Shown: positions 8,339 to 62,046 of the stretch, piece by piece
How the letters are laid out: every line of letters begins with the position of its first letter
How positions within the stretch are numbered: position 1 is the stretch's first letter
Position numbers and translations under genes: made by a program
The notes under the pieces: generated by a model
Databases searched by the model: none
Told to the model about the DNA's origin: nothing
The model's input: only the letters and a program-made list of their open reading frames with translations
From: Membranipora membranacea
Taxonomy: Eukaryota > Bryozoa > Gymnolaemata > Cheilostomatida > Membraniporidae
NCBI GenBank assembly: GCA_914767715.1
Contig: OU612075.1
Coordinates: 7,874,001-7,938,000 of the forward strand
Length of the DNA stretch: 64,000 nt
Direction: 5' to 3'

Positions 8339-9347
8339 TTAGTATCTAGCATGTCTTCCTGGGAATCCGACTGTATTTCCATTTCCGTTGCCATTGCCGT
8401 TGACTCCGCCGAAGTTTCTGTTTCCATTACGGTTTCCATTGAATCCACCAACGTTGTTATTTCCGTTCCGGTTTCCATTGACTCCATTGAAGTTGAAGTT
8501 TCCATTGGAGTTGCCATTTCTCCCGTTGATATTGAAGTTTCCATTCCTATTTCCGTTTACTCCATTCAAATTTTGGTTTCCATTTTTGTTTCCATTCATT
8601 CCACTGAAATTGAGGTTTCCATTTCTGTTTCCGTTTGTTCCAAATCCATGATTGGTATTTCCATTTTGATTTCCATTGGTGCCAAAGAATCCTCTGTTTT
8701 GATTTCCATTTCGGTTGCCAGCTGTTTGGATACCAAAGTTCTCATTTCCGTTTCGGTTTCCGTTGGCTCCATTAAACACATTGTTGTTGTTTCCATTATG
8801 GTTGCCAGCAGTGTTAAGTCCAGTATTATCGTTTCCGTTTCGATTGCCATTTACAGCGCGTCCAGTATTATCATTTCCATTATTGTTTCCAACTGCATCT
8901 TCAATAAAAAGCATTCATCAATAATGTATTCAGAACATTACCACAATTATAATAATTGACCTGGTCAAAATTGATCCATTGAAATTTGGTAGGCTCCACA
9001 TTCAGGAGAGGTTAATTGAATATTTATCTGTTTTAATCTAAGCTAAGCATTCGAAATGTTCAACTTAGAAAACAAATGATATTTTATCGCTTAGAATTAC
9101 TCGTATTCACCAAAATTGCGAAGCAAGGAGTTTAAGAAACCAAAAAAATCAATTTTTGAAAATGCACACTTTTGATAATGGTCTGAATAACATGACACCC
9201 ATGAGATGGGAGAAGACTATTCTTCATACTTAACCCCAGTATAAATTGTGAAGCATTTTACTTACAGCTTGAATGGCTGGGTCTTCTGCCATATCCTGCC
9301 TGAGCCACAGCTACTACCACAAGAAGACATACTGCTACTTTCATCAT
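8339..9347 (-). CDS. NGN-A, secreted Asn/Gly-repeat protein, 213 aa
   Basis: The coding exons are 9347-9266 and 8898-8339; noncoding exon 1 is about 9650-9576. Exon 2 opens with two ATGs and encodes the signal peptide MMKVAVCLLVVVAVAQA, then GYGRRPSHS, and splits a codon in phase 1. Exon 3 encodes six N-terminal units of about 14-15 residues (such as NGNRNGNENFGIQTA), then seven 13-residue units of the pattern NGNxNGNxN-phi-x-G-phi, and ends NTVGFPGRHARY. The mature part has no Cys. The exon 3 acceptor ends gaag and a second in-frame acceptor (gatgcag) lies 6 bp on, so two isoforms differing by two residues are possible. Only NGN-G shares this. By promoter, introns and end sequence it is closest to F and to the 5' part of G. 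It is probably extracellular; the function is unknown. Confidence 0.85.
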
Positions 9348-9678
9348 TATGATATCTGTGAAGGAGAACAATGATAGTCAGTAAACGTTAAAACAGCAAT
9401 AAGAATTTCTCAAAAAGAGAACCTAGTCACTTTGATAACTCTATTAAAATGTATATTGATTATAATTCTTGTTTCTTCTAAATATCAAACTTATTGAAGG
9501 TAAAAAAAAATACAGAACTGAAATTGAAATAATTTGTAAGTGGTGCCCCTTTTGTTTGATTAATTAATAACTTACTTGTTGAATGTGAATGTGAGACCAA
9601 GTTTCTCTCTCTGCTATGGAAGGTCCTCTGCTCAGCTACTCTGATGGTTGTGTGTTTTCTCCTGGCCTCTTCCTTCCC

Positions 9679-9755
9679 TTTTATAGCTATCACATTTCCC
9701 AGGGTATCGAGTAATAAAACTATCCAATGATTGAGTATGAAGCTGAGACAATAGT
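9679..9755 (-). promoter_or_regulatory. NGN-A promoter
   Basis: On the minus strand: gagacaatagt complement (ACTATTGTCTC) at 9755-9745, ATACCCTGGGAAA at 9707-9695, and the TATA box TATAAAA at 9685-9679, with transcription expected to start near 9650. The first element ends 60 bp before TATA, the spacing found at the other copies. Confidence 0.8.
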
Positions 9756-12204
9756 GACCTTTGGTGTTTGGTTTAACCTGGAAGTAATTTGTCATCATTA
9801 AAGGTCATGAAATAAAAATTACCCAACAACTAGAACTGGACAAAAGCGGAAAATCTTGGTTTGTCACTCTAAAAATAAGAACTGAGTGGGATAAAAACAA
9901 TAATTATTGCTTATTAGTGGTAGTTATAATAAATTTCTTAGCTCATTGCGACTGTTGCATAAATAATTATGAAAATGGCTCAACATTGCTGAATCATTTA
10001 GGATTTAGATATATTGGTGGAAGCTGAAATATATATTCTTGGCTCATTGATACTGTTGCATGCATAATCTAGTGATCTTATCAACGGCAATTGGTTGGTA
10101 CTGACTGATCTCTGATCAACATGGAAGAATTGAAATCAGGATGTCATTGGTCCCAAATAAGACATGTCATGAAAAGCGTGGTAGAAGTTCCACCTTGGAT
10201 TAATACACTCAATTATTCAATGATAGTTTCAACTGTGCCTCCCTGTGTTTGGCAATGTGATATCATTATGGAAGTGTTTGAAATTTTTAATTTGTTGCAG
10301 TAGTTTTAATGAGATGTGAAAATGATAATTTTTTCACACATATTCCTAGGCACATTTGTAAACTTCCCCTTTTTGTTATTAGTGAAACTGATATTTCATC
10401 AGGTGACAATTGATTGGTTATAGTTTTACTAAGAACCTTGTGTAAAATATAGATTTGATACATCATTCAACAGGCATGCGTCAAACATCAAGTTGATGGT
10501 TCCTTCAACAAGATAGTTTGGTCAAAATTTTATGAAAATCCAAGCACTTTTTGAATTAGAAATATGAAAGTTTGTCTCAATAATTGATATAACTAGAAAA
10601 ATTTTCAACAGGTGGCTCACATGTTAAAAATATAATTATAAAGCGGTTGATACTATGCGATATTTCAACAACAAATTAGTGAACCAAACAGAGGAGTATG
10701 CAACAGATGTAAACCTATCTCCGTTCCTGTCTATCTTTATTATTATATCATTCGAAAGCTCTAAACACCAGGATCCGAAAAATCTCACCTTTTATTTGCA
10801 TCACGTCATATGACACAATGTCATCGCCAACATAAATCTTGAATATGCATTACCGCCTTCATAATATTATTTGAGCTGTTTGTGATAGAATCATAATTCT
10901 TTCAGCGCTCACACCTATATTTGCTTTAGAATACATTTGACTACATTTTCCTTTATTCTAGGGTACATTCTTATTGGTTTTCAAATTTGGGACATCATAA
11001 CTATATTTAATAAAATTAGGTATGCACCAATCACAAATAAGCTGATATTTGCCCTTCTTTTCCATTACTATACCTTAATTTTAAATAAATCATTGTGCCA
11101 ATGAAGATATTTGACCATCCCTCTGAAAATCTTTGTCTGTCTATCATCATCAATAATGTCTGTTCACGCTTGTCCAGTTTTCAATGAAAAAGCAAATCTT
11201 TTGCTCTCCATGAAATCAATTAATTCTTTTGTAACTGGCTGTCCAGAACACAACAGTCGTGAAGATTCATCCTGCATGTCTTTAAAGAAATTTGTTAGTC
11301 TGTCCGTCAAGCTTGGTCCAGAATTGGAATAGGCATCGTTTCTGCTTTGCATCTCATGTATTGACCCTGAAAAACAAAAGTGTTGATGGACAAAAGCAAG
11401 GCCTGGGGAAGCATCTACAAATCTTGCAAGTTTCAGGTCAATCAATCTCACAGGTCCGAAACTTGGCAGGGTACCTCACGATGGTATTAATTCAAATTAT
11501 TTCCTACAGTTATGACATAGCAAAAGTGATCATGATTATGAAGTGGGATTGCAAAGCTTGCAAATCTAATGTCACTGGCGGTCAAGAAATGAGTTGTTGG
11601 AAACAGGTGTCTGTCAATGTTAACATATTAATGCCTGAAGAAAAAGACTATATTTATAAAACTAATTTGCTAGGCGTAGTCATGAATATTGTGTACATTA
11701 TATCGATTCCAGCCAATACCATGATCAGTAAGCAACGAAGTCAATTTAAACCTCATATATTTTGTAATTAATTACGTTATACATTAATCATCTAATGTTT
11801 ATGGTGGTAGCTTTCTCTAGCTCACCAAGCTGTCACCAACCAATCATCGCCACCAAAATATGATCTCTAGAACAGCCCTGTTGTGTATTATTGATATCTC
11901 AGTTGTTATTTTTGGGGTGCGGTTTACCCTATTTATAAAAATGCTGAAGTAAGTTGGTAAGATTCTGAGGAGACTTTTGTCACCAGCTGATGGTGGAATA
12001 TAGTCTGACAGTATCAGCATGATACCTAGCTGATAATTGGAATTGATGCAAGCATGTTACTGTACCAAATATATTATTTTATTGTCAGACTAACATAATT
12101 TTTTTGAATCGTTTGTGTACAGCGCAGAAAGGTTAACTTAAAAAATGGAAATGAATAAAGGAGATGCGGAGAGACAAGGAACAAAACATCTGTAAAATAA
12201 TAGT
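9756..12204. other. NGN-A upstream flank, paralogous intergenic DNA
   Basis: No gene. The flank carries blocks shared with the upstream flanks of the other copies. The block at about 10,014-10,130 matches 55,640-55,775 inverted (upstream of G) and 50,330-50,490 (upstream of F). The block at about 11,150-11,480 (tgttcacgcttgtccagttt ...) matches 20,270-20,600 directly and 48,640-48,960 and 54,640-54,990 inverted. Open frames here are short and not conserved. Confidence 0.7.
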
Positions 12205-16627: not shown

Positions 16628-17748
16628 TTAGTATTTAGCATGTCTTCCTGGGAATCCGACTGTATTTCCATTTCCGTTGCCGTTTCCGTTGACTCCGCCG
16701 AAGTTTCTGTTTCCATTGTTGTTTCCATTGATTCCACCAATGTTGTTGTTTCCGTTTCGGTTTCCATTAACTCCATTGATATTGAAGTTTCCGTTCAAAT
16801 TGCCATTTCTCCCGTTGATATTGAAGTTTCCATTCCTATTTCCGTTAACTCCATGCAAATTTTTGTTTCCATTTTTGTTTCCATTCATTCCACCGAAATT
16901 GAGGTTTCCATTTCTGTTTCCATTTGTTCCAAATCCACGATTGGTGTTTCCATTCTGGTTCCCATTAATGGCAAATGATCCTCTGTTACCGTTTCCATTT
17001 CGGTTGCCAGCTGTCTGAACACCTAAGTTCTCATTTCCATTTCGGTATCCATTGGCTCCATCAAACACATTGTTGTTGTTTCCATTACGGTTGCCAGCAG
17101 TGTTGAATCCAGTATTTTCATTTCTATTTCTGTTGCCATTTACAGCACGTCCAGAATTATCATTTCTATTATTGTTTCCAACTGGAACTGCAATAAAAGT
17201 AACATTCATTAAAGGTGTATACCTTTACCGCAATTATAAACTTTGGTCAAAAGGTTTCAACGAGAGTTATCAATATAGTTTGGCAGGCTCCACTATCAGA
17301 AGAGGCAAATTGAAAATTATCTGTTTTCATCTGAGCTAAGCATTAAAAATGTTCACCCAGGAAATAAAGATATTTATCACTAACACTAACAGTTAAAATT
17401 AAATTCTGGAAATTTAAACTACTAATGGATGGAGAGAGATATAGATGGATACATTAGTGGAAGGGCACCCTTGTAACAACCATTGCATTATTTTACACGG
17501 TCAACATTAGCATTGAAGGACCGCATAAGGTAGACAGCTGTACATATTTTTGGAATTTTGAAAAAAATTGAAGTGATTTGCTTCCCAGCCAAAAACAGCA
17601 AAAAATAGTTGGCGAAAAGTATCAATTACACTCAAAGAAAAATGTTATCTATAATTGTTTACTTACATTTTGAGTGGCTGAGTCTTCTGCCATATCCAGC
17701 TTGAGCCACAGCTACTACCACAAGAAGACATACTGCTACTCTCATCAT
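16628..17748 (-). CDS. NGN-B, secreted Asn/Gly-repeat protein, 213 aa
   Basis: The coding exons are 17748-17667 and 17187-16628; exon 1 is about 18118-18038 and noncoding. The signal peptide reads MMRVAVCLLVVVAVAQA, with Arg in place of Lys at residue 3, followed by GYGRRLSHSK. Exon 3 starts FPVGNNNRN through the standard ttgcag acceptor and carries six N-terminal units plus seven 13-residue units, the full-length form. It ends GRHAKY. After the stop comes the direct repeat AAATACTAAATACTGG, intact here and collapsed in NGN-E, its closest relative. The intron phases and spacing match the other copies. Predicted to be secreted; role unknown. Confidence 0.85.
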
Positions 17749-18143
17749 TATGATATCTGTGAAGGGGAGAAATGATAGTCAGTAAACGGCTCTATAAAAT
17801 ATTTTTACAATAAAAAATCTAGCTTTCGATGTAGCCTTAACAAGATTTCTAATAGAAATGTTGATGGTGTCATAATTCTCCTTTTTTATAATATGGAACT
17901 TGTGGAAGTCCATTTGAAAAATGTCTAATGTTTGGAACGTTTGTTGAGTTAATGAAATTATAAAAAAAATTATTGACATACGAAAATATCAATAGTGACA
18001 TATGAGCAAGAATTAAGAGAACTGATAAAATACTTACTTTAAAGTGTTGAATGTAAACAAAGATCAGATTTCTCTCTCTTTGCAAAGGTCCTCTGCTGAA
18101 CTGTTGTTATGGTTGTGCGTCTTCTACTGGCCTACTCCTTCCC

Positions 18144-18220
18144 TTATATAGTCATCACATTGCCCAGGGTATGGAGCAATGAAACTTTCATATCCTCTAG
18201 TATCATCCAGAGACAATAGT
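18144..18220 (-). promoter_or_regulatory. NGN-B promoter
   Basis: On the minus strand: ACTATTGTCTC at 18220-18210, ATACCCTGGGCAA at 18172-18160, and TATATAA at 18150-18144. Expected start near 18118. The TATATAAGGG form is shared with NGN-E and differs from the TATAAAAGGG of A, C, G and H. Confidence 0.8.
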
Positions 18221-21200
18221 TGCACTAAATATGTGGGCAGAAAGTAGTTTATCACCATTATAGTTAATAAAAATGAAAATTAACATACAAACAGAAAGGG
18301 GCAATAGAGTAAATACTTGGTCAGTCACATTGAGGAATGAGTTATTCCATGCCTCAAAGTTTGGTCGTATTACTCATGTTTATCAAATATTGCTGGTAGC
18401 ATAAAATATATTTTCTTAACTTATTGCTAAGGTTGCATACATAATGAGTTGACATAGGTCCGGATCAATGAGGATTTATGAAAATGAGAGGTGGCTATGA
18501 TATATTTTTGGCTCATAGCTTACTGTTGCATGCATAATCTAGTGATCTTATAGGCGAAGTAAACACAGATTGATTTCTTACCCACATGGAAGAGGAGAAA
18601 TCCTGGTTATTTGTGTCACAAATTAGGCAACATGCATAGCATAATACTGATGGTGTCATGAAAAGTGCGGGAATTATATGGCAATGAGGTAATGATACAT
18701 AATTAATCAAAGACAGTTTTTTCTGTGTCTCCCTGTGTTTGGCAATTTGATAGCATTATGGAAGTGTCTAAAATCCATAATTTGTAGAAGTAAGAGCTAA
18801 TGAGCTATGAAATTGATAGTTTTGTCCGCACATTTTCCTGAGCAAACATTTGCCAACTTCCCATTTTTGTTTTTAAAATCATAAAACAGATATTTCATTA
18901 TGTGACAATCTATGGGTCATAGTTTTCCGCATAGTATAATAAACCTAGGTATGCATCCATCACAAATAAGTTGATCTTGCCCTATGGTGGTGTTAAAAAT
19001 AGGTCACCTCACTAAAGTCACCCAACTAAGGTGTTAGCGGCTAAGATTATACATCTGAAAAACCACATTGTATGCCATGTCGGAAGAAAGCTTCCTCCTT
19101 AGAACATGCCCTGTTTGGGACACAACATGGTGGTCGTTTTGCTATATTTGTTCCGACATGATAGCCATAGAAGTTATCCCAATGCCTAGACATGATTAAG
19201 CAAATCTTGTAATAGTTGCTTGACAATATTAAAGTTGCTCGCCAAACACATATATATATATAGTACTGGATGATCTCTCAATTTTCGGATAACAGAAAGA
19301 AAATTGATTCAACCTTCATTTGTTTGAAAGTTAACCTTGGAGCAGTTAAATTGTATGTGGAATGATGACATCTCATCATGTGACATGACGTGTGACATTT
19401 TCTGCGATCCTGGCATTGTTAGCTTTCTAATGGTATATAAAATGACACGATCACTCGAAATGAAATTTTACCATTATTATACCTCGGCTTAAAGGGACTC
19501 CAAAGTTTCAGACTGCATTTTGACTACATTATAATCTCATTTCTCTCACCTCAGAAAATGTATTTTGAGCATAGATAAAACTAATTATACAACATTGGAT
19601 GTTTCTCATGCATACTTGACTGTTCATGTGGGTCAATAACCTAGGGATGTGGAATTTAATGCAAAGATTAGGTCAACACATTTTCAGCTAATCAACAAAA
19701 AATTATTTTCAAGTCCGGATTCTAGAGCAGTGCGCATGCTCATCGTGACCTATAACGTCAATTGCTAATCTCTGTAATCAATATACCTTGCATGATATTA
19801 TACACCTGTGTACAGCATAATAAAACTGGTCATGATTGTAATCCGGATGTGGACTACTGCACATGGCTTAGGCTAAGTTCCATTTTAATTAAGCAGAGTA
19901 AAATGGGCACTGAACAATAATCCACCAAAGCTAAATGCCTGTTGTTATAAGTCTCAGGCTGAAATACTAGCACTTGGAGACAGGAGGAAAGGAAATAATC
20001 CATGGTCTTAGGAAGGAGTTATCTGATCTAGTTATATTTTCGTGATTATATAGGTAAAAAAAATGTAGGATTTTACAATTACAATATTCTGAATATAAGT
20101 GTCAAATTTGAGGCTAGGACATATTTCCAAACCTATTCAGGGCAGTTTGAAGGCATTTGAGCATGACAGTCTTTGAAACTTTGGAATCAGTTTAAGTAAA
20201 TAACTGTACCAATGCGAAGTTAAAAATTTGACCATCCATCGTACAAGTTTATCATCATAATCTGAATGTCTGTTCACGCTAGTCCAGTTTTTAATGAGAG
20301 AGCAAATGTTTTGCTCTCCAGGAAAACTATTTATTCCCTTGTAACTTGCTGACCAGAACACAACAGTCGTGAATATTCATCCTGAATGTCTATTAAAGAA
20401 ATTTGTTAGTCTGTCTGAAACATACTGTCCGTTTTACTTGGTCCAGAATGGGAAGGGCATCCTCATTTCTTTGCTCCTCATGTATAGGCCTATACCCTGA
20501 CAAACAGATTTATAGACATAGGCAAGACCTTGGCAGGCATATAAAAATCTCTCAAATTTCAAGGCAATCGATCTCACAGGTCCGAAACATGACATAGTAC
20601 CTCTCTAGGGTATAAATTATCTCCAAGAGTTTTGACATAGCAAAAATTTGCATGAACATAATGTAGGATTGAAAATCTTGCAATGCTAATATCATGAAAT
20701 GAATTGTTGGAAACAGGTGTCTGTCAATTTTAACATATTGATGACTCAAGGAAAATGTATCAGTATATTGATTAAACTAATTTGCCATGCACAGTCTTGA
20801 ATTAAATTGCCATGATCTCAATCTGGTGATCTATTTTGGTTGCCAATGAATACCAGATTCACAGACACAAGTCGATTTTAACCTCATATATTTTGCTTTT
20901 ATGATGCCAAACTGATAATCATAGAATCGACGTTGCCAAGTATACTTTTATTGTCAGACCACAATAATTGCTGCATGCACAGCCAGAAAAAATAACTTAG
21001 ATAAATAAATAGGGAAAAGCAGAGTAAAGAATAAAAAACTTTAAAATACTTATTACCCTTATTCATCACATTATTAACTGTGCAGAAGGGAAAAATTATG
21101 GCAGAATCATAATAATAACATGCGTAGTAGTTCTTTGTCCTTTCAACAAAAAGTTTGTCTTTAAAATAATTATGATGAGATTGTGATTGTGACTGTGTTC

Positions 21201-22138: not shown

Positions 22139-22177
<39 letters not shown>

Positions 22178-30053: not shown

Positions 30054-31306
30054 TTAGTATCTAGCATGTCTTCCTGGGAATCCGACTGTGTTTCTATTTC
30101 CGTTGCCGTTTCCGTTTTGTCCGCCGAAGTTTCTGTTTCCATTGTTGTTTCCATTGATTCCACCAAAGTTTTGGTTTCCGTTTCGGTTTCCATTGACTCC
30201 ATTGATATTGAAGTTTCCGTTTAAGTTGCCATTTCTCCCGTTGATATTGAAGTTTCCATTTCTATTTCCGCTAACTCCATTTACATTGTGATTTCCATTT
30301 CTGTTTCCATTTGTTCCAAATCCACGATTAGTATTTCCATTTTGGTTTCCATTGATTCCATAGAATCCTCTGTTTTGGTTCCCATTTCTGTTGCCAGCTG
30401 TTTGAACACCAAAGTTGTCGTTTCCATTTCGGTTTCCGTTGGCTCCATTAAACACATTGTTGTTGTTTCCATTATGGTTGCCAGCAGTGTTGAATCCAGT
30501 ATTGTCGTTTCCGTTTCTGTTGCCATTTACAGCACGTCCAGAATTATCGTTTCCATTATTGTTTCCAACTGGAACTGCAATAAAAAACTTTCATTGAAAA
30601 TGTGAACAATATATTTTCTAAATTATAAACTTTAGTCAAAAATGTTCAACCCAGAATTACCGATAGGTTTTGGCAGACTCCACCTTCAGGAGAGGCAAAT
30701 TGGACATTGATCAGTTATAGTCTGAGCCATGCATTTGAAATTTTCAATTTTGAAATAATTATATTTATTACTTATCCTTATCCTTTGTGAAGTGATAAAA
30801 TTCTAGAAAGATACACTATTTATGATAGCCTGACTGAAATTCCATCCATGAGATAGAGAAAGTTTTAAGTGGCGCCCTTGTTACAACTATTGCATTTAAG
30901 CCTGGGATTTGTTTAACCAGAAACGTTTTCAGTACCTTAAAGGTGCGGCTAGATTTTTTTACTGCCATATAGGGAGACAACATCTGATAGTTTACAATGC
31001 AATATTTTGGAACGGTGACCCGATTAATGCTTTTCCCCAGTAGATCAAAAACTCCAGGCCGTATATATTTATCAATAAATGATATCCCCGCCGTATATCT
31101 TCTCTGACATCATACAAAATCATTTTTGTCTCAGCCAGAAAACAGCATAGAAATTGACAACAATTTATCGATCCCACACAAAGAAAGAATCATATGAAGA
31201 CTTGTTGTGCACTACTTTACTTACACTTTGGGTGGCTGGGTCTTCTGCCATATCCAGCTTGAGCCACAGCTACTACCACAAGAAGACATGCTGCTACTCT
31301 CATCAT
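30054..31306 (-). CDS. NGN-C, secreted Asn/Gly-repeat protein, 200 aa
   Basis: The coding exons are 31306-31225 and 30574-30054; exon 1 (about 31597-31515) is noncoding and ends cttgaa|gtaagt. The signal peptide differs slightly from A (MMRVAACLLVVVAVAQA), followed by GYGRRPSHPK. Exon 3 is 521 bp, one 39-bp unit shorter than A, B and F. The fourth and fifth units are fused (NGNRNGNHNVNGV), so one 13-residue unit is lost in frame. It ends GRHARY. An AATAAA signal on the minus strand lies at 29,918-29,913, about 140 bp past the stop. It sits in unit 1 of the tandem duplication. Its closest relative is NGN-H, which shares the HNVNGVSGNRNGN segment. Confidence 0.85.
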
Positions 31307-31622
31307 TATGATATCTGAGAAGGAGAGAAATGATAGTCAGTACACAGCAACAGATAATGTTTATAATGAAAACCTAGTTTTTCAAATATAATTATAATGG
31401 TGACATAATTGGTTGTGTAATATAATTATGAACATGATCTATTTATTATTTTGAAAATAAATCTTTTTGAAACTTAGTGGAATCAATAGAGAAATATAAG
31501 AAATGAGTACTTACTTCAAGTTGTTGAATGTGAACAAAGATCGAGTTTCTCTCTCTGCAATGGAAGGTCCTCTGCTGAGGTGTTATTATGGCTGTGTGTC
31601 TTCTTCTGGCCCCCTCCTTCAC

Positions 31623-31700: not shown

Positions 31701-31722
31701 TGCCTTTGACATGTGGTCAAAC

Positions 31723-36934: not shown

Positions 36935-38141
36935 TTAGTATCTAGCATGTCTTCCTGGGAATCCGACTGTGTTTCTATTTCCGTTGCCGTTTCCGTTTCG
37001 TCCGCCGAAGTTTCTGTTTCCATTGTTGTTTCCATTGATTCCACCAAAGTTATGGTTTCCGTTTCGGTTTCCATTGACTCCATTGATATTTTGGTTTCCA
37101 TTTTTGTTTCCATTCATTCCACTGAAATTGTGATTTCCATTTCTGTTTCCATTTGTTCCAAATCCACGATTAGTATTTCCATTTTGGTTTCCATTGATTC
37201 CATAGAATCCTCTGTTTTGGTTACCATTTCTGTTGCCAGCTGTTTGAACACCAAAGTTGTCGTTTCCATTTCGGTTTCCATTGGCTCCATTAAACACATT
37301 GTTGTTGTTACCATTATAGTTGCCAGCAGTGTTGAATCCAGTATTGTCGTTTCCGTTTCTGTTGCCGTTTACGGCGCGTCCAGAATTATCGTTTCCATTA
37401 TTGTTTCCAACTGGAACTGCAAAAAAAAACTTTCATTGAAATACAATATATTTCCTAAATTATAAACTTTAGTCAAAAATGTTCAACCCAGAATTACCAA
37501 TAGGTTTTGGCAGACTCCACCTTCATGAGAGGCAAATTCGACATTGATCAGTTATAGTCTGAGCCAAGCATTTAAAGTTTTCAACTTTGAAGGAATTATA
37601 TTTATTACTTACCCTTATCCTGTGTGAAGTGATAAAATTCTAGAAAGATACACTATTTTTGATAGCCTGAATAAAATTCCACCCATGAGATAGAGAAAGT
37701 TTTAAGTGGCGCCCTTGTTACAACCATTGCATTTAAGCCTGGGATTTGTTAAACCAGAAACATTTTCAGTACCCCAAAGGTGTGGCTAGCATTTTTTACT
37801 GCCATATAGGGAGACTACATCCGAAAGTTTACAGTGCAATATTTTGGAACGGTGACCCGATTGATGCTTTCCCCAATTAGATCAATAACCACATGCCGTA
37901 TATATGTATCAATTATGATATCCCGCCATATTTCTTCTCTGACATCATACAAAATCATTTTTGTCTCAGCCAGAAAACAGCATGGAAATTGACAAGAATT
38001 TATCAATCCCACACAAAGAAAGAATCATATGAAGATATGTTGTGCACTACTTTACTTACACTTTAGGTGGCTTGGTCTTCTGCCATATCCAGCCTGAGCC
38101 ACAGCTACTACCACAAGAAGACATGCTGCTACTTTCATCAT
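36935..38141 (-). CDS. NGN-D, secreted Asn/Gly-repeat protein, 187 aa
   Basis: The coding exons are 38141-38060 and 37416-36935; noncoding exon 1 is about 38433-38351. The signal peptide is MMKVAACLLVVVAVAQA, followed by GYGRRPSHLK. Exon 3 is 482 bp, two 39-bp units shorter than the full-length form; after FSGM and QNINGV units it passes directly to HNFGGI. One His-to-Tyr change (GNYNGN) distinguishes its N-terminal units. It ends GRHARY. A minus-strand AATAAA lies at 36,793-36,788. Exon 2 is preceded by cgcag|aatcc instead of cacag|atat, a form shared with NGN-H. It is the minus-strand gene closest to the divergence point. Confidence 0.85.
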
Positions 38142-38458
38142 TATGGATTCTGCGAAGGAGAGAAATGATAGTCAGCACACAGCAACAGATAATGTTTAAA
38201 ATGAAAAACCTAGTTTTTCAATTATAATTATAATGGTGACATAATTGGTTGTGTAATATAATTATGAACATGATCTATTTATTATTTAGAAAATAAATCT
38301 TTTTGAAACTTAGTGGAATCAATAGAGACATATTAGAAATGAGTACTTACTTCAAATTGTTGAATGTGAACAAAGACCGAGTTTCTCTCTCTGCAATGGA
38401 AGTTCCTCTGCTGAGCTGTTGTTATGGCTGTGTGTCTTCTTCTGGCCTTCTCCTTCCC

Positions 38459-42970: not shown

Positions 42971-43347
42971 GGGAAGGAGGAGGTCAGGAGAAGACACAGA
43001 ACCATAACAACAGCTCAGCAGAGGAACTTCCATTGCAGAGAGAGAAATCTGGTCTTTGTTCACATTAAACAACTTGAAGTAAGTATCTTAGCAGTACTAT
43101 CAACTGATGCTTAATTTCATATTCTCAAATGTCGCTATTTTTTCTTATAATTTTATTCATTTCAGTTTAATTTTACAAAGTTTTGAAATAAGCTTTCAAC
43201 AGTTTGATATTTATAAAAAAGACAATTGTGCCACCATTATCATTTTTAAAAGAATTCTTATTAGGGCTACATGGAAAGTTAGGTTTCTCATTGTAAACAT
43301 TTTATAGAGCCATTTACTGACTATCATTCCTCTCTTTCACAGTTATT

Positions 43348-44569
43348 ATGATGATGAAAGTAGTAGTATGTCTTCTTGTGGTAGTAGCTGCGGCTCAAGC
43401 TGGATATGGCAGAAGACCCAGCCACTCAAGGTGTAAGTAAATTTGTACACAAAATATCTTACTTTGAGTGTGATTGATAGCTTGTTGATTTGGATGATGG
43501 TTTCTTTGTGTGAATGATGATTTATTGGCAATTTTTTTGCTGTTTTCTGGCTGAGATGAAAATGATTTTACATGATGTCGAAGAAATTATATGCAGGTAA
43601 TAGTTCTATACTGCCACCTGTTATTGATCCACTCGGGAAAATCAACAATCTGGCAATCTTTCCAAAATACAGTGCATAGTTAACTATATAATGCAGTTTC
43701 TCAAATGTCCCTCATACGTATGTTGGCAGTGAAAAACTCTAACCACACCTGTTAGGTACTGAATACGTTTCTGGTGTATAATACCCAGGTTGAAATATAA
43801 TAGTTGTGCCATGGGTGCCCATAAACTAATGCATCAATGTGAAACTCCTTCAATCTCATTGGTTGAATTTTATTCAGGCTATCACCAATAGTGTACCTTT
43901 ACAGAATTTGAATGCTAAGCTTAGCTTAGACTACAACTACAGATAAGTTTTCAATTTGCCTCTCCTTAAAGTGGAGCCTAACAAAGTCTCTCAATAACTC
44001 TGGTCAAAAATGCTTGACCGATATTTATTAAAATTGAATTAATGGACTGTACACACTTTCAATGAATATTTATTATTGCAGTTCCAGTTGGAAACAATAA
44101 TGGAAATGATAATACTGGATGGGCTGTAAATGGCAACAGAAATGGAAACAAAAATACTGGATTCAACACTGCTGGCAACCATAATGGAAACAACAACAAT
44201 GTGTTTAACGGAGCTAACGGAAACCGAAACGGAAACGAGAACTTTGGTGTTCAAACAGCTGGTAACCGAAACGGAAACCACAACAGAGGATCCTTTGGCG
44301 TCAATGGAAACCGAAATGGAAACACAAATCTTGGATTTGGAACCAACGGAAACAGAAATGGAAACCATAATTTTGGTGGAATGAATGGAAACAGAAATGG
44401 AAATCAAAATGTGAATGGAGTAAACGGAAATAGAAATGGAAACTTCAATATCAATGGAGTCAATGGAAACCAGAACGGAAACAGAAACTTTGGCGGAGTC
44501 AATGGAAATGGCAACGGAAATAGAAATACAGTCGGATTCCCAGGAAGACATGCTAAATACTGGAAATAA
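43348..44569 (+). CDS. NGN-E, secreted Asn/Gly-repeat protein, 190 aa, extended C-terminus
   Basis: The coding exons are 43348-43432 and 44082-44569; noncoding exon 1 is about 42995-43078. Three ATGs in a row open the frame (MMMKVVVCLLVVVAAAQA), one Met more than the other copies, followed by GYGRRPSHSR. Exon 3 has five 13-residue units and would be 482 bp by the family stop, but it ends GRHAKYWK. A 7-bp deletion in the direct repeat AAATACTAAATACTGG, intact in NGN-B, removed the usual TAA, and the frame runs two codons further to TAA. There is also GWAV where others have GRAV, giving the only Trp residues in the family. It is the first gene of the plus-strand block and closest to B. Predicted to be secreted; role unknown. 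Confidence 0.85.
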
Positions 44570-50808: not shown

Positions 50809-51102
50809 GGGAAGAAGGAGGCCAGGAGAAGACACACAACCATAAAAACAGCTCAGCTGAGGACCTTCAATTGCCGAGAAAGAAACTTGGTCTTTGTTCA
50901 CATTCAACAAGTACGTTACTAATTCAACATATATTATTTCAATTTCAATTTCAATATCATTTGTTTCATAAGTTTAATATTTATAAGAAACAACCATTAT
51001 ATCAATATATATATATATATATTGATATACATTAAGGAGAATTGTCGAAAAAATGTCATTGCTGTTAACTGACTACCATTTCTCTCCTTCACAGATATCA
51101 TA

Positions 51103-52419
51103 ATGATGAAAGTAGCAGTATGTCTTCTTGTGGTAGTAGCAGTGGCTCAAGCTTCATATGGTAGAAGACCCAGCCATCCAAAATGTAAATAAATTATGAC
51201 ACAAAATATCTTACTTTGAGTGTGATTGATACTTTTTCGTCATTTTCCTTGCTGTTTTTGCTGAGATCAAAATCACTTGATATGATGTCAGAGAGGAAAT
51301 ACAGGGGGGTCACCATAAGGATATTTATATATTGCCTGTGGTTATCGATCCACTGGGGAAAAGCATGATCAGGCTATTTGTGCATAGTGCATAGCAGCTG
51401 TCTACCTATGGCTGTCTTTCAAATACTACCTATGCTAATGTTGGTGGTGTAAAAACTTAGCTGCCCTGGTGGATACTGAAAATATTTCTGGTGTACAATC
51501 CTGGGCTGAAATGCAATGGTTGTATCAAGGGTGCCCATCAATGCCATCATAACTGTATCGATTTCAAACACCCTCTTCTATCTCATGGGTTGGATTTCAT
51601 CAGTATTGAACATTTCCAGAAATTTTATTATACAATTTATCCGTGCTTCACAATATGTGAATACAAATAGGCCAAAGTAATCAAATATCCCTTTTTATGT
51701 TGTACACATTGAGTGCTTAGCTTAGACCAAAAGAAATAATTCCTCTTCTGAAAGTAGGGCCTGCATAACTCCATTCATAACTACGGTTGAATATTTGTGA
51801 CCAAAGTTTATATGTGAGGTAATACACTGTACACTTTTCAATAAATTTTTTTATTGCAGTTCCAGTTGGAAACAATAATGGAAATGGTAATACTGGACAT
51901 GCTGTAAATGGCAACAGGAATGGAAATGAAAATGCTGGATTCAACACTGCCGGCAATAATAATGGAAACCACAATAATGTGTTTAATGGAGCCAACGGAA
52001 ACCGAAATGGAAACGAGAACTTTGGTGTTCAAACGGCTGGCAATCGAAATGGAAACCGAAACAGAGGCTTCTTCAGCATCAACGGAAATCAGAATGGAAA
52101 CACAAATCGTGGATTTGGAACCAATGGCAACAGAAATGGAAACCTTAATTTCCGTGGAATGAATGGAAACAAAAATGGAAACCAAAATGTATATGGAGTA
52201 AACGGAAATAGGAATGGAAACTTCAATTTCAAGGGGAGAAATGGCAACTTGAACGGAAACTTCAATATCAATGGGGTCAATGGAAACCGAAACGGAAACC
52301 AAAACTTTGGTGGAATCAATGGAAACAACGATGGAAACAGAAACTTCGGCGGACGCAGCGGAAATGGCAACGGAAATGGAAATACAGTCGGATTCCCAGG
52401 AAGACATGCTAGATACTAA
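51103..52419 (+). CDS. NGN-F, secreted Asn/Gly-repeat protein, 213 aa
   Basis: The coding exons are 51103-51184 and 51860-52419; noncoding exon 1 is about 50835-50910. The signal peptide is MMKVAVCLLVVVAVAQA, followed by SYGRRPSHPK (Ser where the others have Gly). Exon 3 is the full 560 bp with seven 13-residue units, including the variants NFRGM, NVYGV and NFKGR, a single Asp in NGNNDGN, and SGNGNGNGN as the last unit. It ends GRHARY. Both donor sites are weaker than in the other copies (gtacgt after exon 1, gtaaat after exon 2), and the TATA box is altered. The reading frame is nonetheless intact. Its upstream flank and the first bases after the stop are A-like. Confidence 0.85.
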
Positions 52420-55400
52420 ATACTAGCTATATAGAATTTATGCTTTTTTCAATGTCATTTTGTTGAGATCAGTTTATGTCTATGCTAAATTTTTATTGTT
52501 TAATGACTTTATTTGCTTTTTATTATTCTGCTGTTTGCTACTTTGTTCTCTGAACATCAGATTGAGTTATGTAAAAATATATTATATATATGCAATGACT
52601 ACACGGAAGTAGAATCTTGTAGCAAGGGATAGGCCCTACATGATAACAACACTGTACATCTATAATATCAACAGTGGTTTTACTCACCGATTGCCTTTGA
52701 ATTTGTTTCTCAGATGTCCCCCATGTACAGTCTGCACTCCAAATGCTAAAAGAAAATTGAGAAACTATTCGCAATTGTACTGATTTGGTAGTTTATTCAC
52801 AAACAATTTAGATGAAATATGGTTTTAAAACAGTCTTTAACAAATTATAAAAATTTGTCAGGCACGATTTCAAAATTAGATCAGCCATTTTCTCAGAAGT
52901 CTGAAAATAACTTATTAAAACTATTCCTGTATACCAATTATGAATGGTATGGATTTCAATTTCTTCACTATTTTGCAATGTGAAGGATAAATATATATAT
53001 ATATTTATCCTTATGTCTGTCCTGACTGTCTTTAGCATTGTGTCCCTGTTGTGATTTGCAAGTCCTATTGATATTCACTTGTCCAATATATAATAATTGT
53101 GATCATCAGTTTCCAATCAACAACCTATTTATGGTGAGTATTAGTTGATTCAGTCAGCCGACAGAAACATCAACAGCCTCTCATTATGTACAAATTGTCT
53201 GCTGTCACCCCTTTAACTCTGGCTCAGTGCGCCAAACAGATGAACAGAAAGGAATTCTCAATCATTCGAGACGCAGTGTGGACTGAAAATGTCCATAGAT
53301 TGGTCAACGACAGATGTAATCAAAATTATGTTGGTTTTCACTAGCAAGATGGGCAGATAATCTCTCAACAGACAGCTCAACAAAAATGTGCATGGCAATC
53401 AAATCAAGTTTGGGTAGTTGAACAATAGTTTTTAGTTAATTTTTTGTTCACCCTTGTTCAATCTTGATCTTGACATCTTTTGGTTCACCAACCTGCGCGG
53501 TTTATGTATTGTACCCTGTGAAAACACAGTATCCCCATATAATGATGATGGTTACCCATGCTGTAATTGGTCATTGTTAGAACGAAACACTGATCACATA
53601 CAAGCTAAGTATAAGAAAGAAGATATTTATTTATCAACCTATTTTGAAAGGTGATATTTTGTCTTTTTATGACCTTTTGCTAAAATTTCGGTGACATTAT
53701 AATGAACTTATCTATTCTGTAGGGTACGTTCTAATATACAGATATTTTCTGATAAATTTTTTCATGGGCATGAGTTCCATAACAATTATATTTTACTAGA
53801 AAACAAAAATGTTATATAGAGTTTTTGTTTGAAGGCAAAACAACACTTTTACTGTCTTCAAGAGTATTCAGGTGAAGTGAGGAAAAGAATACAGACCAAA
53901 GCTGAATAAGGGTGTAACTCGTCATTGTAAAAAGACAATTGATTTAAGATATTGAACATCGCGTATGAATTAACACATGCATAGCTATTTCACATGCCGT
54001 GAAGCATCATGATTAGTTGCGGGAATGTAAAAAAGTTATTCTTTCTTCTATCTATACTTTATACTTCATTTTTAGCCGATCAAAGTCACAGGCAACATAT
54101 GAGACCATGCCATTAAAAAAAAGAACTTTTGTATCTATATTTATATTATTATATTGATTCTGCCACATTTTTTCCTTTCTGCAAAGTTATTGAAGTGATG
54201 CTGGGTTACTTGGTATTTTAAAGTTTATTCATTGCATTCCCTTATTTTTGAAGTTACCTTTTCTGTCTCTGCATGCAACACAGTAACAAAAATGATTGTG
54301 GTCTGACAATAAAATTATATATATATATGATACAAATACTTGCTATCATTGATTCCATGATTACCAGCTCAGCGTCAATAAAACAAAATAGATGAGTTTT
54401 AAATTGACTTGATTGTGTTAATTATGGTATTCACTGGCAATAAAAACAGACCACCAAATTGAGATCATGGTGATGAAGTTCAAGAAAGTGCACGGCAAAT
54501 TAGTTTAACAAATAAACTGATACTTTGTTTCAGTCATTAATATTTAAAATTTACGATATTAGCATCACAGGAATTTAAACCTTCTTTCATATTCGTGGAA
54601 TTTTTTGCAATGTCATGAGTCTTAGAGATTTGAGTTAACACCCTGGAGAGGTACCCGGCCAAGTATTGGACCTGTGTGATTGATTGACTTGAAATTCGAT
54701 TTTGATATGCTTGCCCAAGTCTTCCCTATGTCTGTAATGCTTGTAATACTTCTGTGTGTCAGGGCTATACATGAAGTGCCCATTCTCATTCTGTACCAAG
54801 TTACACGGACAGTATGTTCCGGGCAGACTGACAAATTTCTTTAATCGATATATGCAGGATCAATTTTCACAACTGTTGTGTTATGGCCAGCCAGTTACAA
54901 GAGAATAATTGTTTTTCATGGTGAGCAAAACATTTCTTTTCTCATTGAAAACTGGCCAAGTGTGAACAGACATACAGATGATGATAAACTTGTCCAAATG
55001 ATGGTCAAATATTAAATTTCTTCATTGGGACAGTGGTTAAATTAAACTTAAGGTATATTGATGGCAAAATATAGTAATCATATTGATTGTATATCATCGA
55101 AAAACTGTTCCAAGGTTAACCTTTGAACAAATGACGTTAAAATCAACTTTTTTTCTATTATTGTTCTCAATCAGCTTCTAATATCAATTTAACATAACTT
55201 AAAATATTTATAAAATGCACAGTGCTTAAATTTATATAAGAATTCGGACCAAACTTTCCTGTAGAAGGAGCCATCAACCTGATGTTTGGCTCATGCCTGT
55301 TGAATGCTGTATCAAATCTTGCTAAAACTATAATCAATCGATTAAAACTTGATAAAATATCTCTTTCACTAAAAACAAAAAGGGGAAGTTGACAAATTTG

Positions 55401-56000: not shown

Positions 56001-56077
56001 ACTATTGTCTCAGCTTCATACTCAATCATTGGATAGTTTTATTACTCGATACCCTGGGAAATGTGACGGCTATAAAA
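56001..56077 (+). promoter_or_regulatory. NGN-G promoter
   Basis: ACTATTGTCTC at 56,001-56,011, ATACCCTGGGAAA at 56,049-56,061, and TATAAAA at 56,071-56,077. Expected start near 56,101. The surrounding bases (gatagttttattactcgata) are those of NGN-A. Confidence 0.8.
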
Positions 56078-56407
56078 GGGAAGGAGGGGATAAGGAGAAG
56101 ACACACAACTATCAGAATAGCTCGGCAGAGGAACTTCCATTGCAGAGAGAGAAACTTATTCTTACACTCACATTCAACAAGTAAGTAATCAACTAATTCA
56201 ACAAAAGGGGCACCACCAACAAATTATTTCAATTTCAGTTCTGTATTAGTTTTTACCTTCAATAAGTTTGATATTTAGAAGAAACAAGAATTATAATCAA
56301 TATACTTTTTAATAGAGTTAACAAAGTGACTAGGTCCTCTTTATGAGAAATGTTCATTGCTGTTTAGTGTTTATTGACTACCATTGTTCTCCTTCACAGA
56401 TATCATA

Positions 56408-57153
56408 ATGATGAAAATAGCAGTGTGTCTTCTTGTGGTAGTAGCTGTGGCTCAAGCAGGATATGGCAGAAGGCCCAATTACTCAAGATGTAAGTAAAAT
56501 ATGACACACACAATAGCTTTCTAAGTGATAACATATCATTTATTTTCTAGGTTGAACATTTTGAATGCTTAGCTTAGATTAAAACAGATAAATATTCAAT
56601 TAACCTCTCCTGAATGTGGTGCCTACCAAATTTCAATGGAACAATTTTGACCAGGTCAATAATTGAGGTAATGTACTGAATACATTATCGTTGAGCGCTT
56701 TTTATTGAAGATGCAGTTGGAAACATTAATGGAAACGATAATACTGGACGCGCTGTAAATGGCAATCGAAACGGAAACGATAATACTGGATTTAACACTG
56801 CTGGCAACCATAATGGAAACAACAACAATGTGTTTAAAGGAGCCAATGGAAACCGAAATGGAAACGACAACTTTGGTGTTCAAACAGCTGGCAACAGAAA
56901 TGGGAACCAAAACAGAGGATTCTATGGGATCAATGGAAACCAAAATGGAAATACTAATCGTGGATTTGGAACAAATGGAAACAGAAATGGAAATCACAAT
57001 TTCAGTGGAATGAATGGAAACAAAAATGGAAACCAAAACTTTGGTGGAATCAATGGAAACAACAATGGAAACAGAAACTTCGGCGGACAAAACGGAAACG
57101 GCAACGGAAATGGAAACACAGTCGGTTTCCCAGGAAGACATGCTAGATACTAA
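56408..57153 (+). CDS. NGN-G, chimeric secreted Asn/Gly-repeat protein, 174 aa
   Basis: The coding exons are 56408-56489 and 56711-57153; noncoding exon 1 is about 56101-56180. The signal peptide is MMKIAVCLLVVVAVAQA, followed by GYGRRPNYSR. Exon 3 is the shortest, 443 bp with four 13-residue units. Intron 2 is only 221 bp. The promoter, both introns, the gaag/gatgcag double acceptor and exon 3 up to about 56,790 are A-like (cgaaacggaaacgataatac). From about 56,841 onward exon 3 and the 3' flank are C/D/H-like (gaaatggaaacgacaac, GFYGINGN). An AATAAA signal lies at 57,272-57,277. The gene is intact and ends GRHARY. Confidence 0.85.
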
Positions 57154-59460
57154 ATACTAGCTAAATAGTAATAATGCCAATTTGAAAGTCATTTTGTTGA
57201 GAGCAGTTTATGTCTATGCTAAATGTTTATTGTCGTGAATTGTTCTTTTGTTAGTTACATTGTTATCTGAAAATAAAATGGAGTGATGCCAAAATATATT
57301 TTATATGCAATGATTACACCAACATAGCAACTTAGACCAATAAATTACATGATATTAACACCTGACATCTATAATAACAACTGTGGTGTAACTGAAAGAT
57401 TTTGATTTTCAATTCGATTCTCAGATGTCCTCCATGAAGAGTCTGCCTTACGAATGCCAAAGAAAGATTTTGAAATTATTTCCAATCCGTCTGATTCGCT
57501 AGATAAGTCATAAGGACGATGGATGGAATAATGGATTCAAAAATGTCTTCTAAGACTTATAAAGTGATATCAGATGCGAAATATTATATCCAAATATTCA
57601 ATCATAACTTACAACAGGAATGTAAGAAAATTGGGACAAATTGTAGCTTTTAAAATAGTCTGACATCAGCTCCTATTTTGACGCATTCTTGGATTGCATG
57701 ATTGAGTTTTGTGTTGATAAGAATAAGTTTGTTGTCTTCTTAACCTGAGGGGTGAAACATCCTATTTAACATTTGGACTTTGTGGTTCCAGGCCTGTCAA
57801 CATATATATATATATATATATACTATATATCCTCATGATTATATTAAGATTGTTATTACTTTTCTATCAAATACCTATTTCTAGTTTGTATTTGTCAGTC
57901 AGTCAGCCTCTCTTTATAAACAAAATGTTACTGCCTTCGTTTAAATTCAATGAGTCTTCATTATGACCTGAAAACAACTATTGGTGAAGGTGCCATCAGG
58001 CGTTAGATAGGGCTTAGTAAGCATTTACTTGACCAACTTGATTTGACAATAAATTATACCCAATTGAGTGTCTGGTAAATAATCTGTAGACAGAAAACAT
58101 TTACTTTCCATGCAACAGGAACAGATGGTCTTTGCTGCACAGGTATGGATGGGTGGCGAATTCGCTATGATAAGCAGACGGACAACATAGTTGACAGATA
58201 GTCTGGGTGGAATGAAAACACAATCATTACTTAGTGTACTCATTGAGAAAATATATATCACGTTTTATTTGCATTCACTATGATCTGTAAATGTTCTCCC
58301 TGATATGCAATCAAAACTCAAATTAATGAAATAAAGATACCAACTCGATCCACTGAAAAACCAATGATTGGCAATAAAAGATTTTGGATGGATCCAGGAT
58401 GGAGTATGACAAATTAAAAAGTGACGTTCTGTGCAGGAAAAATCACTGACAACATTGCATTGGCTAAGACCATGAAGTATTAAATGGCAAAAAAGTGAGA
58501 CCTGACAAGATTTAAAGTCTAATTATGTAGAAAACTACTATTGTGTTGAAGTCAAGTAAATTGGAAGCTGTATATTTATTATCAGCCTAAAGGCTCTTTG
58601 CCCGGGGATGAAAATTGTATTTTCAAATAAGATAGAGACATATATTGTAACAAAATATTTACCATAAATGAGATGATGGAAGATATTCTGGTAATAAAAC
58701 CTCAATGGCGCAATTCTGACAATACAGAACCTACATTTCAATGAATGATGTTCAAAGCGCAAGCATATCATGAAAATTTAAGAACCCAAATTTTTGCTTA
58801 GAGAACAGATCAGTGGTTACTATTATCTGATTTAGAAAGAAGATGGACTGTGTTCTTATAATGACTCTTATAACATTTTTTATGGATAACTTATCAAATA
58901 CCTATGATACTGTTAAAAATTGGGGCAAAAAGTATGATACGATATTTCAACTGATTTATAATGATAAGGTATTTGCTTGCATGAAATCCATGATTATCAG
59001 CTAGATTTAAAGAAAACAAAATGGAGTTTTTTAATTGGCTTGAGTTACTGATCATGGAATTCGCCAGCAATCAAACAAGACTGTGCATGACTTTCAGTTT
59101 TATAAATATCAGTTTCCGGTCATTAATTCCTGAATGCCAGTGAAATTAGCATTACAATCTTGTCAAGCCTACTGAATATTCATGAAAATTTTCAAACCTA
59201 ATGGATTTCATTTTGGCGATCATCCTATAAAAGTACCCTGCCAAGTTTTTGACTGATTGTCTGTAATAAGATGTATTGAGATTCGAAGATGCTTGTCCAA
59301 GTTGGTCTATGTCTACCCATACGTGTCTGTCTGTCAGGGTCTATGCTTGAGGTACCAAATAAAAAGGATGCCCAATTACCATGCCATACATGTTTGGTTT
59401 TACAGAGACATTTATTTAATAGACGGGCAGGATGAATTTACACAACTGTTGCTTGCCGGA
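57154..59460. repeat. inverted copy of the NGN-D 3' flank
   Basis: This stretch runs backwards along unit 2: 57,160-57,930 with 36,140-36,900 inverted, then 57,945-59,455 with 33,600-35,120 inverted. About 1 kb (roughly 35,125-36,130 of unit 2) is missing at a junction near 57,940. It contains a TA microsatellite at 57,801-57,825. Short open frames at 58,025-58,261 and 58,538-58,771 also occur in the other copies. Confidence 0.8.
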
Positions 59461-60440: not shown

Positions 60441-60518
60441 ACTATTGTCTCCGTTTCTTACACAGTTATGTGACAGTGTTATTCTTCCATACCCTGGGAA
60501 AATTTGAAGACTATAAAA
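60441..60518 (+). promoter_or_regulatory. NGN-H promoter
   Basis: ACTATTGTCTC at 60,441-60,451, ATACCCTGGGAAA at 60,489-60,501, and TATAAAA at 60,512-60,518. Expected start near 60,542. It is nearly identical to the C promoter apart from the poly-G tract. Confidence 0.8.
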
Positions 60519-60833
60519 GGGAAGGAGGAGGCCAGAAGAAGACACACAGCCATAATAACAGCTCAGCAGAGGACCTTCCATTGCAGAGAGAGAAACTCGG
60601 TCTTTGTTCACATTCAACAATTTGAAGTAAGTACTCATTTCTTACATGTCTCTATTGATTCCCATGTTTCAAAAAGATTTATTTTCTAAATAATAAATAG
60701 ATCATGTTCATAATTATGTTACACAACCAATTATGTCACCATTATAATTATAATTGAAAAACTAGGTTTTTCATTTTAAACATTATCTGTTGCTGTGTAC
60801 TGACTATCATTTCTCTCCTTCGCAGAATCCATA

Positions 60834-62046
60834 ATGATGAAAGTAGCAGCATGTCTTCTTGTGGTAGTAGCAGTGGCTCAAGCTGGATATGGCAGAAGAC
60901 CCAGCCACCCAAAGTGTAAGTAAAGTAGTGCACAACATATCTTCATATGATTCTTTCTTTGTGTGGGATCGATAAATTCTTGTCAATTTCCATGCTGTTT
61001 TCTGGCTGAGACAAAAGTGATTTTGTATGATGTCAGAGAAGAAATACGGCGGGGATATCATTTATTGATACATATATACGGCCTGTGGCTATTGATCTAC
61101 TGGGGAAAAGCATTAATCTGGTCACCGTTCCAAAATATTGCATTGTAAACTATCGGATGTAGTCTCCCTATATGGCAGTAAAAAATCTAGCCGCACCTGT
61201 AAGGTACTGAAAACGTTTGTGGTTTAACAAATCCCAGGCTTAAATGCAATGGTTGTAACAAGGGCGCCACTTAAAACTTTCTCTATCTCATGGATGGAAT
61301 TTCATTCAGGCTATCATAAATAGTGTATCTTTCTAGAATTTTATCACTTCACACAGGATAAGGATAAGTAATAAATATAATTTTTTCAAAGTTGAAAAGT
61401 TTAAATGCTTGGCTCAGACTATAACTGATCAATGTCCAATTTGCCTCTCCTGAAGGTGGAGTCTGTCAAAACCTGTTGGTAATTCTGGATTGAACATTTT
61501 TGACTAAAGTTTATAATTTAGAAAATATATTGTACACATTTTCAATGAAAGTTTTTTATTGCAGTTCCAGTTGGAAACAATAATGGAAACGATAATTCTG
61601 GACGTGCTGTAAATGGCAACAGAAACGGAAACGACAATACTGGATTCAACACTGCTGGCAACCATAATGGAAACAACAACAATGTGTTTAATGGAGCCAA
61701 TGGAAACCGAAATGGAAACGACAACTTTGGTGTTCAAACAGCTGGCAACAGAAATGGGAACCAAAACAGAGGATTCTATGGAATCAATGGAAACCAAAAT
61801 GGAAATACTAATCGCGGATTTGGAACAAATGGAAACAGAAATGGAAATCACAATGTAAATGGAGTTAGTGGAAATAGAAATGGAAACTTCAATTTCAATG
61901 GAGTCAATGGAAACCGAAACGGAAACCAAAACTTTGGTGGAATCAATGGAAACAACAATGGAAACAGAAACTTCGGCGGACAAAACGGAAACGGCAACGG
62001 AAATAGAAACACAGTCGGATTCCCAGGAAGACATGCTAGATACTAA
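60834..62046 (+). CDS. NGN-H, secreted Asn/Gly-repeat protein, 187 aa
   Basis: The coding exons are 60834-60915 and 61565-62046; noncoding exon 1 is about 60542-60626. The signal peptide is MMKVAACLLVVVAVAQA, followed by GYGRRPSHPK and a phase-1 junction completing F. Exon 3 is 482 bp with five 13-residue units. It keeps the C-specific HNVNGVSGNRNGN fusion and has lost one further unit, giving FNFNGV. It therefore reaches the same length as D by a different deletion. It ends GRHARY. An AATAAA lies at 62,182-62,187. It is the inverted counterpart of NGN-C by both flanks. Confidence 0.85.

Follow-up and report, generated by a model that had tools for sequence, protein, structure and literature searches.

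Eight clustered paralogous genes for candidate secreted Asn/Gly-repeat structural proteins in a contig of Membranipora membranacea

The closest described systems to the genes considered here are the Pinctada nacre proteins of the pearlin/N14/N16 type, which have a signal peptide and are rich in Gly and Asn with NG repeats, and the functional amyloids Fap of Pseudomonas and curli, in which the secreted subunits consist of short Asn-rich repeats. The nacre protein nacrein carries a carbonic anhydrase domain, and the repeat motif of the curli protein CsgA is Sx5QxGxxNxAx3Q. Pearlin is described, in the part of the source available, as having ten conserved Cys residues, four acidic regions, an isoelectric point (pI) of 4.69 and a stretch of NG repeats that is at most 20 residues long (PMC7677314), and the published amyloid repeat of FapC is given, in a source likewise available in part, as Asn/Gln-rich with the motif GN-x-GN-x2-AG-x2-NQQ-x-N (PMC5557850). 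We analyzed a 64,000-base window of Membranipora membranacea DNA (contig OU612075.1 of assembly GCA_914767715.1, positions 7,874,001 to 7,938,000) that contains a cluster of eight intact paralogous Asn/Gly-repeat genes, designated A to D on the minus strand and E to H on the plus strand. On the basis of sequence, we propose with moderate confidence that this cluster encodes cationic structural proteins that are secreted, self-assemble and have a β-type Asn-ladder repeat, and which would most likely be building blocks of some extracellular material.

The plan that the original prediction had assigned to these genes (a noncoding exon 1, a signal exon, a phase-1 junction, a repeat exon and a common tail) was found in all eight, and the repeat exons were open, in stop-to-stop open reading frames (ORFs), at the predicted places in every gene. 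Exon 2 is conserved in each copy and encodes the sequence MM(K/R)(V/I)(A/V)(A/V)CLLVVVA(V/A)AQA, read by eye as a putative signal peptide that is followed by G or S in all eight proteins. Phase-1 splicing yields a single uninterrupted frame of 174-213 residues in each gene, with intron lengths of 184-281 and 221-675 bases. Upstream of all eight genes is a conserved exon-1 block consisting of a TATA-like box and a GTAAGT/GTACGT donor; the box is degenerate in F, and in D it was missed by a pattern scan and is visible in the alignment. An AATAAA or ATTAAA sequence is present within 500 bases past the stop codon in seven of the eight genes, the exception being E, with the sole poly(A) signal 11 bases past the stop in B and 494 bases past it in F. 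A ninth copy was not found in the window using proteins E and F and exons 1 and 2 of H as queries.

The mature proteins are 157-196 residues in length and contain 33-36% Asn, 24-25% Gly and 8-9% Arg, with a computed net charge of +12 to +17, a computed pI of 11.7-12 and 2-4 acidic residues each. As the original prediction stated, they lack Cys (8/8) and, with the exception of E, which has two such residues, Trp. The tail NTVGFPGRHA(R/K)Y is present in all eight, with an additional WK in E. Like the Pinctada pearlin/N14/N16 proteins, the window proteins have NG repeats (19-29 per protein, compared to the short NG repeats of pearlins in the available portion of PMC7677314), and so it might be suggested that they are nacre-type NG-repeat matrix proteins, kin to N14/N16/pearlin or nacrein. 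In contrast to those proteins, however, they have none of the ten Cys residues, no acidic regions or acidic pI (about 12 versus 4.69), and are nearly entirely repeat; furthermore, no Pfam family scored above its cut-off in any of the eight repeat exons, including the carbonic anhydrase domain of nacrein, which bears out the earlier remark that the nacre proteins have domains missing here. The adjoining semaphorin-type gene (see below) does not point to a mollusc host. Such kinship is thus refuted on the tested features, as judged from the predicted exons, and we consider it barely credible.

The repeat unit is 13 residues in length, with the form (hydrophobic)NGNxNGNxN(hydrophobic)Gx, and strict NGNxNGNxN units number 7 to 10 per protein. 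Of 58 steps between units, 32 had a spacing of 13, 14 a spacing of 29 and 8 a spacing of 14, the spacings of 29 being due to longer units toward the N terminus. An Asn residue was followed by Asn at +2 in 70-75% of cases per protein; in shuffled sequences (1000 shuffles for each of the eight proteins) the mean was 33-36%, and the highest value reached was 51%. Among 65 window units, in which the Asn columns are fixed by construction of the unit pattern, the fraction with a hydrophobic residue was 63% at position 0 and 66% at position 10. Position 4 was K, R or H in 63% of units. N-glycosylation sequons were absent from five proteins, with one in each of two proteins and two in one, compared to 2.9-4.5 expected from shuffles; our reading is that sequons are few because the alternation places Asn where Ser or Thr would be required.

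In the structural model that we favor, removal of the signal peptide would leave a Cys-free cationic chain of ~13-residue units with a pI of about 12, in which Asn would occupy positions 1, 3, 5, 7 and 9, positions 0 and 10 would be those most often hydrophobic, and a turn rich in Gly would come next. This alternation would suit β-strands stacked through Asn ladders, as a β-solenoid or a cross-β meander, and it would therefore be expected that the secreted chains self-assemble into a fiber, coat or adhesive. A solenoid with a flat face might instead bind ice or another ligand, by analogy with the insect antifreeze solenoids, which have ~13-residue TxTxTxT repeats. The alternation and repeat length are similar in principle, but the rows would be of Asn and not Thr, position 4 is commonly charged as described above, and there was no match to PDB sequences, so that we regard an ice-binding function as very improbable.

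The number of Asn-Gly pairs per mature protein (19-29) exceeds that in shuffled sequences (12.6-17.3), and in model peptides Asn-Gly is the fastest-deamidating dipeptide, with a half-life of the order of days, according to the part of PMC4682632 that was available. If all such pairs were converted, the computed pI would fall from about 12 to 4.3-4.9 and the charge would change from +12 to +17 to -7 to -16. These values raise the possibility of a charge-switching matrix protein, in which deamidation of the secreted chain would allow it to bind calcium or cationic partners and to harden or to template mineral. On the other hand, the Asn-Gly excess might simply follow from the repeat, and structure is able to block deamidation, as 12 of 64 Asn-Gly sites were negative in the dataset given in the accessible part of that paper (PMC4682632). 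A charge switch of this kind is unlikely in our estimation, and it is compatible with, rather than exclusive of, a self-assembling structural protein.

The eight paralogues are under purifying selection, with dN/dS values of 0.11-0.37 in 28 of 28 pairs. This result bears on a further possibility, that the genes are a tandem-expanded family of cationic Gly/Asn-rich antimicrobial or immune effectors, as would be consistent with the small size of the proteins, their net charge, the secretion-type plan and the multigene cluster. The purifying selection in all pairs, the near-uniform repeat and the absence of a Cys framework argue against this possibility, and on the sequences we judge an effector family to be distinctly unlikely.

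The closest pairs of genes are C-H, D-H and C-D, with dS values of 0.04-0.11. Gene G (56400-57453) is a chimera, A-like in its 5′ part and C/D/H-like from ~150 bases into exon 3. Like its intron 2 (90%), the upstream flank of G is nearest to that of A (89.6% over 1300 bases), and its exon 3 begins with 150 bases that are 96.6% identical to A and 94.6% to H, whereas the middle of exon 3 is 98.6-99.3% identical to C, D and H versus 88.6% to A, with the downstream flank likewise nearest to C/D/H. Therefore, the exchange point is located within the 5′ portion of exon 3. Similarly, the repeat exons of A and F are 88.8% identical over 599 bases, in comparison to just 76.9% for the upstream flanks. 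The repeat exon thus recombines between paralogues, and such exchange would shift the repeat number with preservation of the repeat chemistry. A simple inverted duplication of the whole cluster was also considered and rejected: it predicts that the closest pairs would be A-H, B-G, C-F and D-E, in contrast to those found, and it is also contradicted by the upstream part of A being nearest to that of G.

A 103-codon open frame was observed beside gene A (11164-11475, minus strand), with stop-containing copies flanking B, F and G (20247-20802, 48430-48944 and 54549-55048). It had no match in Pfam and is probably a decayed or noncoding portion of the duplicated unit.

The original prediction described the family as unrecognised, and in the libraries searched it has no named counterpart: there was no Pfam family above cut-off for any of the eight repeat exons, as noted above, no NCBIfam match for E (the only window protein given), no PHROGs match for E or F (the only ones given), and no match to PDB sequences using F alone or two profiles. 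Matches of A, B, D and F to PF20844 (E 0.004-0.53, 11-18 bits, relative to a cut-off of 43) were dismissed as low-complexity noise. The repeat, tail and signal words were not found in the main texts of the literature searched, which did not cover most subscription journals, and for part of the related topics (spongin and sponge matrix, byssus, solenoids, deamidation, functional amyloid) no title naming such a family was listed, most of those papers being judged by title. The string NGNGNG was found in the pearlin literature. Kinship to the mollusc byssus proteins of Dreissena (Dbfp) was considered and rejected, the Dbfps being described, in the available part of PMC6474901, as Gly/Tyr-, Pro- or Cys-rich with different repeats. 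Asn terms were not found in a paper on silk-like proteins (PMC4944945). Repetitive secreted matrix proteins are a known kind, of which this repeat family would be a variant that the libraries searched do not describe.

A full-length search of 5.8 billion proteins with one window protein as the query gave two matches at E ≤1e-3, and a profile search, in which the 7,988 candidates sharing the most words were scored, gave 11 at E ≤0.01 with a profile that contained pieces of P0001 and P0002, two of the matched proteins. Six of the 11 (P0001, P0002, P0004, P0005, P0006 and P0008) look eukaryote-like, with N termini that resemble read-through intron; P0011, a weak match (E 1.4e-3), is from the fungus Geosiphon pyriformis; and P0003, P0007, P0009 and P0010 look bacterial or are unplaced, by reading. 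P0001, from a European Nucleotide Archive (ENA) contig of 4,149 bases, matched with an E value of 1.6e-7 using a single window protein as the query, its value of 5e-15 in the profile search not being independent because the profile included a piece of it. It shares the 13-residue repeat, and its tail (NGNGNGNGN-RAGF-GRKYKY) is similar by eye to that of the window proteins (NGNGNGNGN-TVGFPGRHARY), but unlike the window genes it has an N terminus that resembles translated intron, with the alignment limited to the last exon-like stretch. In a scan of viral contigs, none of the 184 stretches fitting the pattern was confirmed as a relative.

A scan of 84,980 prokaryote species, using a profile that contained pieces of P0001, P0003, P0009, P0010 and P0011, yielded at least three confirmed loci (3 of 592 candidate stretches, among the matches listed), all in Alphaproteobacteria: a Paracoccaceae metagenome-assembled genome (L001), what we take to be Mesorhizobium (L002), and Geminicoccus (L003). 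Like the window, these loci have several small repeat ORFs side by side (per locus, three or four neighbors of the NGN or NxGxGN type), several of which have Sec-like N termini as read by eye; unlike the three-exon window genes, they are uninterrupted. Of the steps between units, 16 of 19 were 13 residues long in the eukaryote-like relatives, as were 25 of 34 for the bacterial proteins and 3 of 4 for Geosiphon, although the shared spacing is in part ascertained, as profile and pattern searches favor an equal period. The bacterial set comprised eight proteins, five from L001-L003 plus P0003, P0009 and P0010 (taken as bacterial by their look), and omitted P0007, the L001 gene at 5387-6082 and the remaining ORFs of the NGN type in L002 and L003. 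In eukaryote-like units, position 0 was hydrophobic in 80% and position 10 in 44%; the corresponding values were 47% and 62% for bacterial units, and 4 of 9 and 5 of 9 units in two L001 neighbors other than the matched gene. As judged by sequence, then, the repeat extends beyond this cluster, with relatives or look-alikes in metagenomes, a fungus and Alphaproteobacteria.

The surroundings of the bacterial genes hint at a link to fiber secretion. L001 has an adjoining C39 peptidase (Pfam, 59.7 bits relative to a cut-off of 22) for which the best NCBIfam model is FapD, at 62 bits and under the cut-off of 330, and LuxR-family regulators are present in L001 and L002 (two of the three loci), with a histidine kinase in L002. 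Relatives of the L001 C39 peptidase occur on 41 plasmid records, four of which, hand-picked rather than random, were examined (two from Alphaproteobacteria and two from Cupriavidus). An Asn- or Gly-rich repeat ORF was found upstream in all four, and both of the loci in which neighbors were scanned had a closer match to FapD as well as a FapF-like transporter, each below cut-off. A tblastn search of plasmids with one L001 NGN protein gave no match with the low-complexity filter on. These arrangements suggest that Asn-/Gly-rich repeats may act as secreted fiber subunits in bacteria.

Other repeats were observed in the bacterial loci. NxGxGN-type repeats adjoin the NGN genes in L001 (3368-4600), L002 (3545-4210) and L003 (4380-4862); those of L002 and L003 are weakly similar, below cut-off, to Pfam Pentapeptide_2, and the L001 protein has a VPLPA-CTERM-like sorting signal at its C terminus, scoring just under cut-off. 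Alphaproteobacterial Fap-like plasmid gene sets are present at L004 5191-6477 and L006 5363-6370, with putative fiber subunits whose repeats are rich in Asn and Ser (DNSNRASGYNT; SGNDNSDNSIDVAD) and had no match in NCBIfam.

In favor of self-assembling structural proteins, we counted the secretion-type plan and the alternating Asn in all eight genes, the purifying selection in all pairs and the few sequons, together with the similar repeats in alphaproteobacterial loci, the C39/FapD-like gene in L001 and the plasmid repeat ORFs. We infer a structural, matrix, adhesive or mucus role, to which the bacterial loci would add indirect support. A Fap secretion apparatus would not be expected in an animal. 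Several results weigh against the structural interpretation. The FapC motif, relaxed pattern included, and the CsgA motif were each absent from all eight proteins, and the Pfam curlin repeat was not listed at E values up to 1. The hydrophobic preference is weaker than in the window at position 10 of the eukaryote-like relatives and at position 0 of the bacterial ones. A C39 gene was found in one of the three NGN loci and in none of the five L002/L003 neighbors scanned, on short flanks, and the link that it provides concerns bacteria and not this animal. Furthermore, the NGN 13-mer was present in none of the four plasmid loci, which were chosen by us and carry other Asn-/Gly-rich repeats. Lastly, a secreted family that is cationic and Gly-rich may be antimicrobial as well.

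The occurrence of the 13-residue repeat across kingdoms stands out as the most unusual of these results. The bacterial and animal repeats may be similar by convergence, which is possible on the sequences. A more far-reaching interpretation, which we consider rather improbable, is that the NGN 13-mer is one fiber module with one fold, present both in Fap-like secreted clusters of Alphaproteobacteria and in animal extracellular material, that was passed between them by horizontal transfer and later acquired introns, a TATA promoter and a signal exon of the eukaryotic type.

The coordinates of the eight genes are as follows, with the ORFs taken stop-to-stop from an ORF scan and all eight exon-1 starts being estimates. 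On the minus strand, gene A has a noncoding exon 1 at 9576..9656 (start ~30 bases past the TATA-like box at 9686), an exon 2 encoding the signal peptide at 9266..9355 (ATG at 9347, phase-1 donor) and an exon 3 containing the Asn/Gly repeat and stop codon at 8339..8898 (ORF 8339-8914). The corresponding exons 1, 2 and 3 of gene B are at 18038..18121 (TATA-like box at 18151), 17667..17756 and 16628..17187 (ORF 16628-17224), those of gene C at 31515..31600 (box at 31630), 31225..31314 and 30054..30574 (ORF 30054-30590), and those of gene D at 38351..38436 (box seen in the alignment alone, start placed to match that of C), 38060..38149 and 36935..37416 (ORF 36935-37432). On the plus strand, gene E has exons at 42993..43078 (box at 42963), 43343..43432 and 44082..44569 (ORF 44066-44569), the last being the sole copy with Trp and having the C terminus AKYWK; gene F at 50831..50910 (degenerate TATA at 50801), 51095..51184 and 51860..52419 (ORF 51823-52419); gene G at 56100..56180 (box at 56070), 56400..56489 and 56711..57153 (the chimeric exon; ORF 56695-57153); and gene H at 60541..60626 (box at 60511), 60826..60915 (ATG at 60834) and 61565..62046 (ORF 61549-62046), with AATAAA at 62182.

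Elsewhere in the window, a multi-exon gene of the transmembrane semaphorin type, with an unusual PSI region and exons read by eye, is located at 1074-6420 on the plus strand. One 92-residue exon of this gene gave ≤33 bits with insect and vertebrate semaphorins in PDB, some of the species being presumed by us. In a search of the 5.8 billion proteins, among which insects and fish are represented by name, the best match to the gene was an ENA protein with 30% identity (among 120 listed of 284), and the named bilaterian matches in the same 120 were 23-29% identical. The CpG observed/expected ratio of the window is 0.43, with TpG and CpA at 1.34; the available part of one source reports stronger CpG depletion in the demosponges Amphimedon and Ephydatia than in most invertebrates, and a CpG content that differs among sponges (PMC7385117). 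Taken by themselves, the low semaphorin identities and the strong CpG depletion would hint at an early-branching animal, perhaps a demosponge. A minisatellite is present at 162-438 (16-base unit, ~17 copies, 91% matches), and an inverted repeat with ~1.49 kb arms of 95.8% identity at 24152-25637 and 25937-27420, separated by a 300-base spacer, is perhaps a mobile element or a recent inverted duplication.

Animal extracellular materials such as silks, byssus and glues often consist of lineage-specific repeat proteins that are missed by profile libraries, and this cluster is a clear candidate for such a family, with the gene structure, selection and recombination of the candidate matrix proteins all readable in one window. 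The very high Asn-Gly content leads to a sharp chemical prediction about the aging of the secreted material. If it is true that the common repeat reflects a common fold, an animal matrix protein would be tied to bacterial secreted fiber systems.

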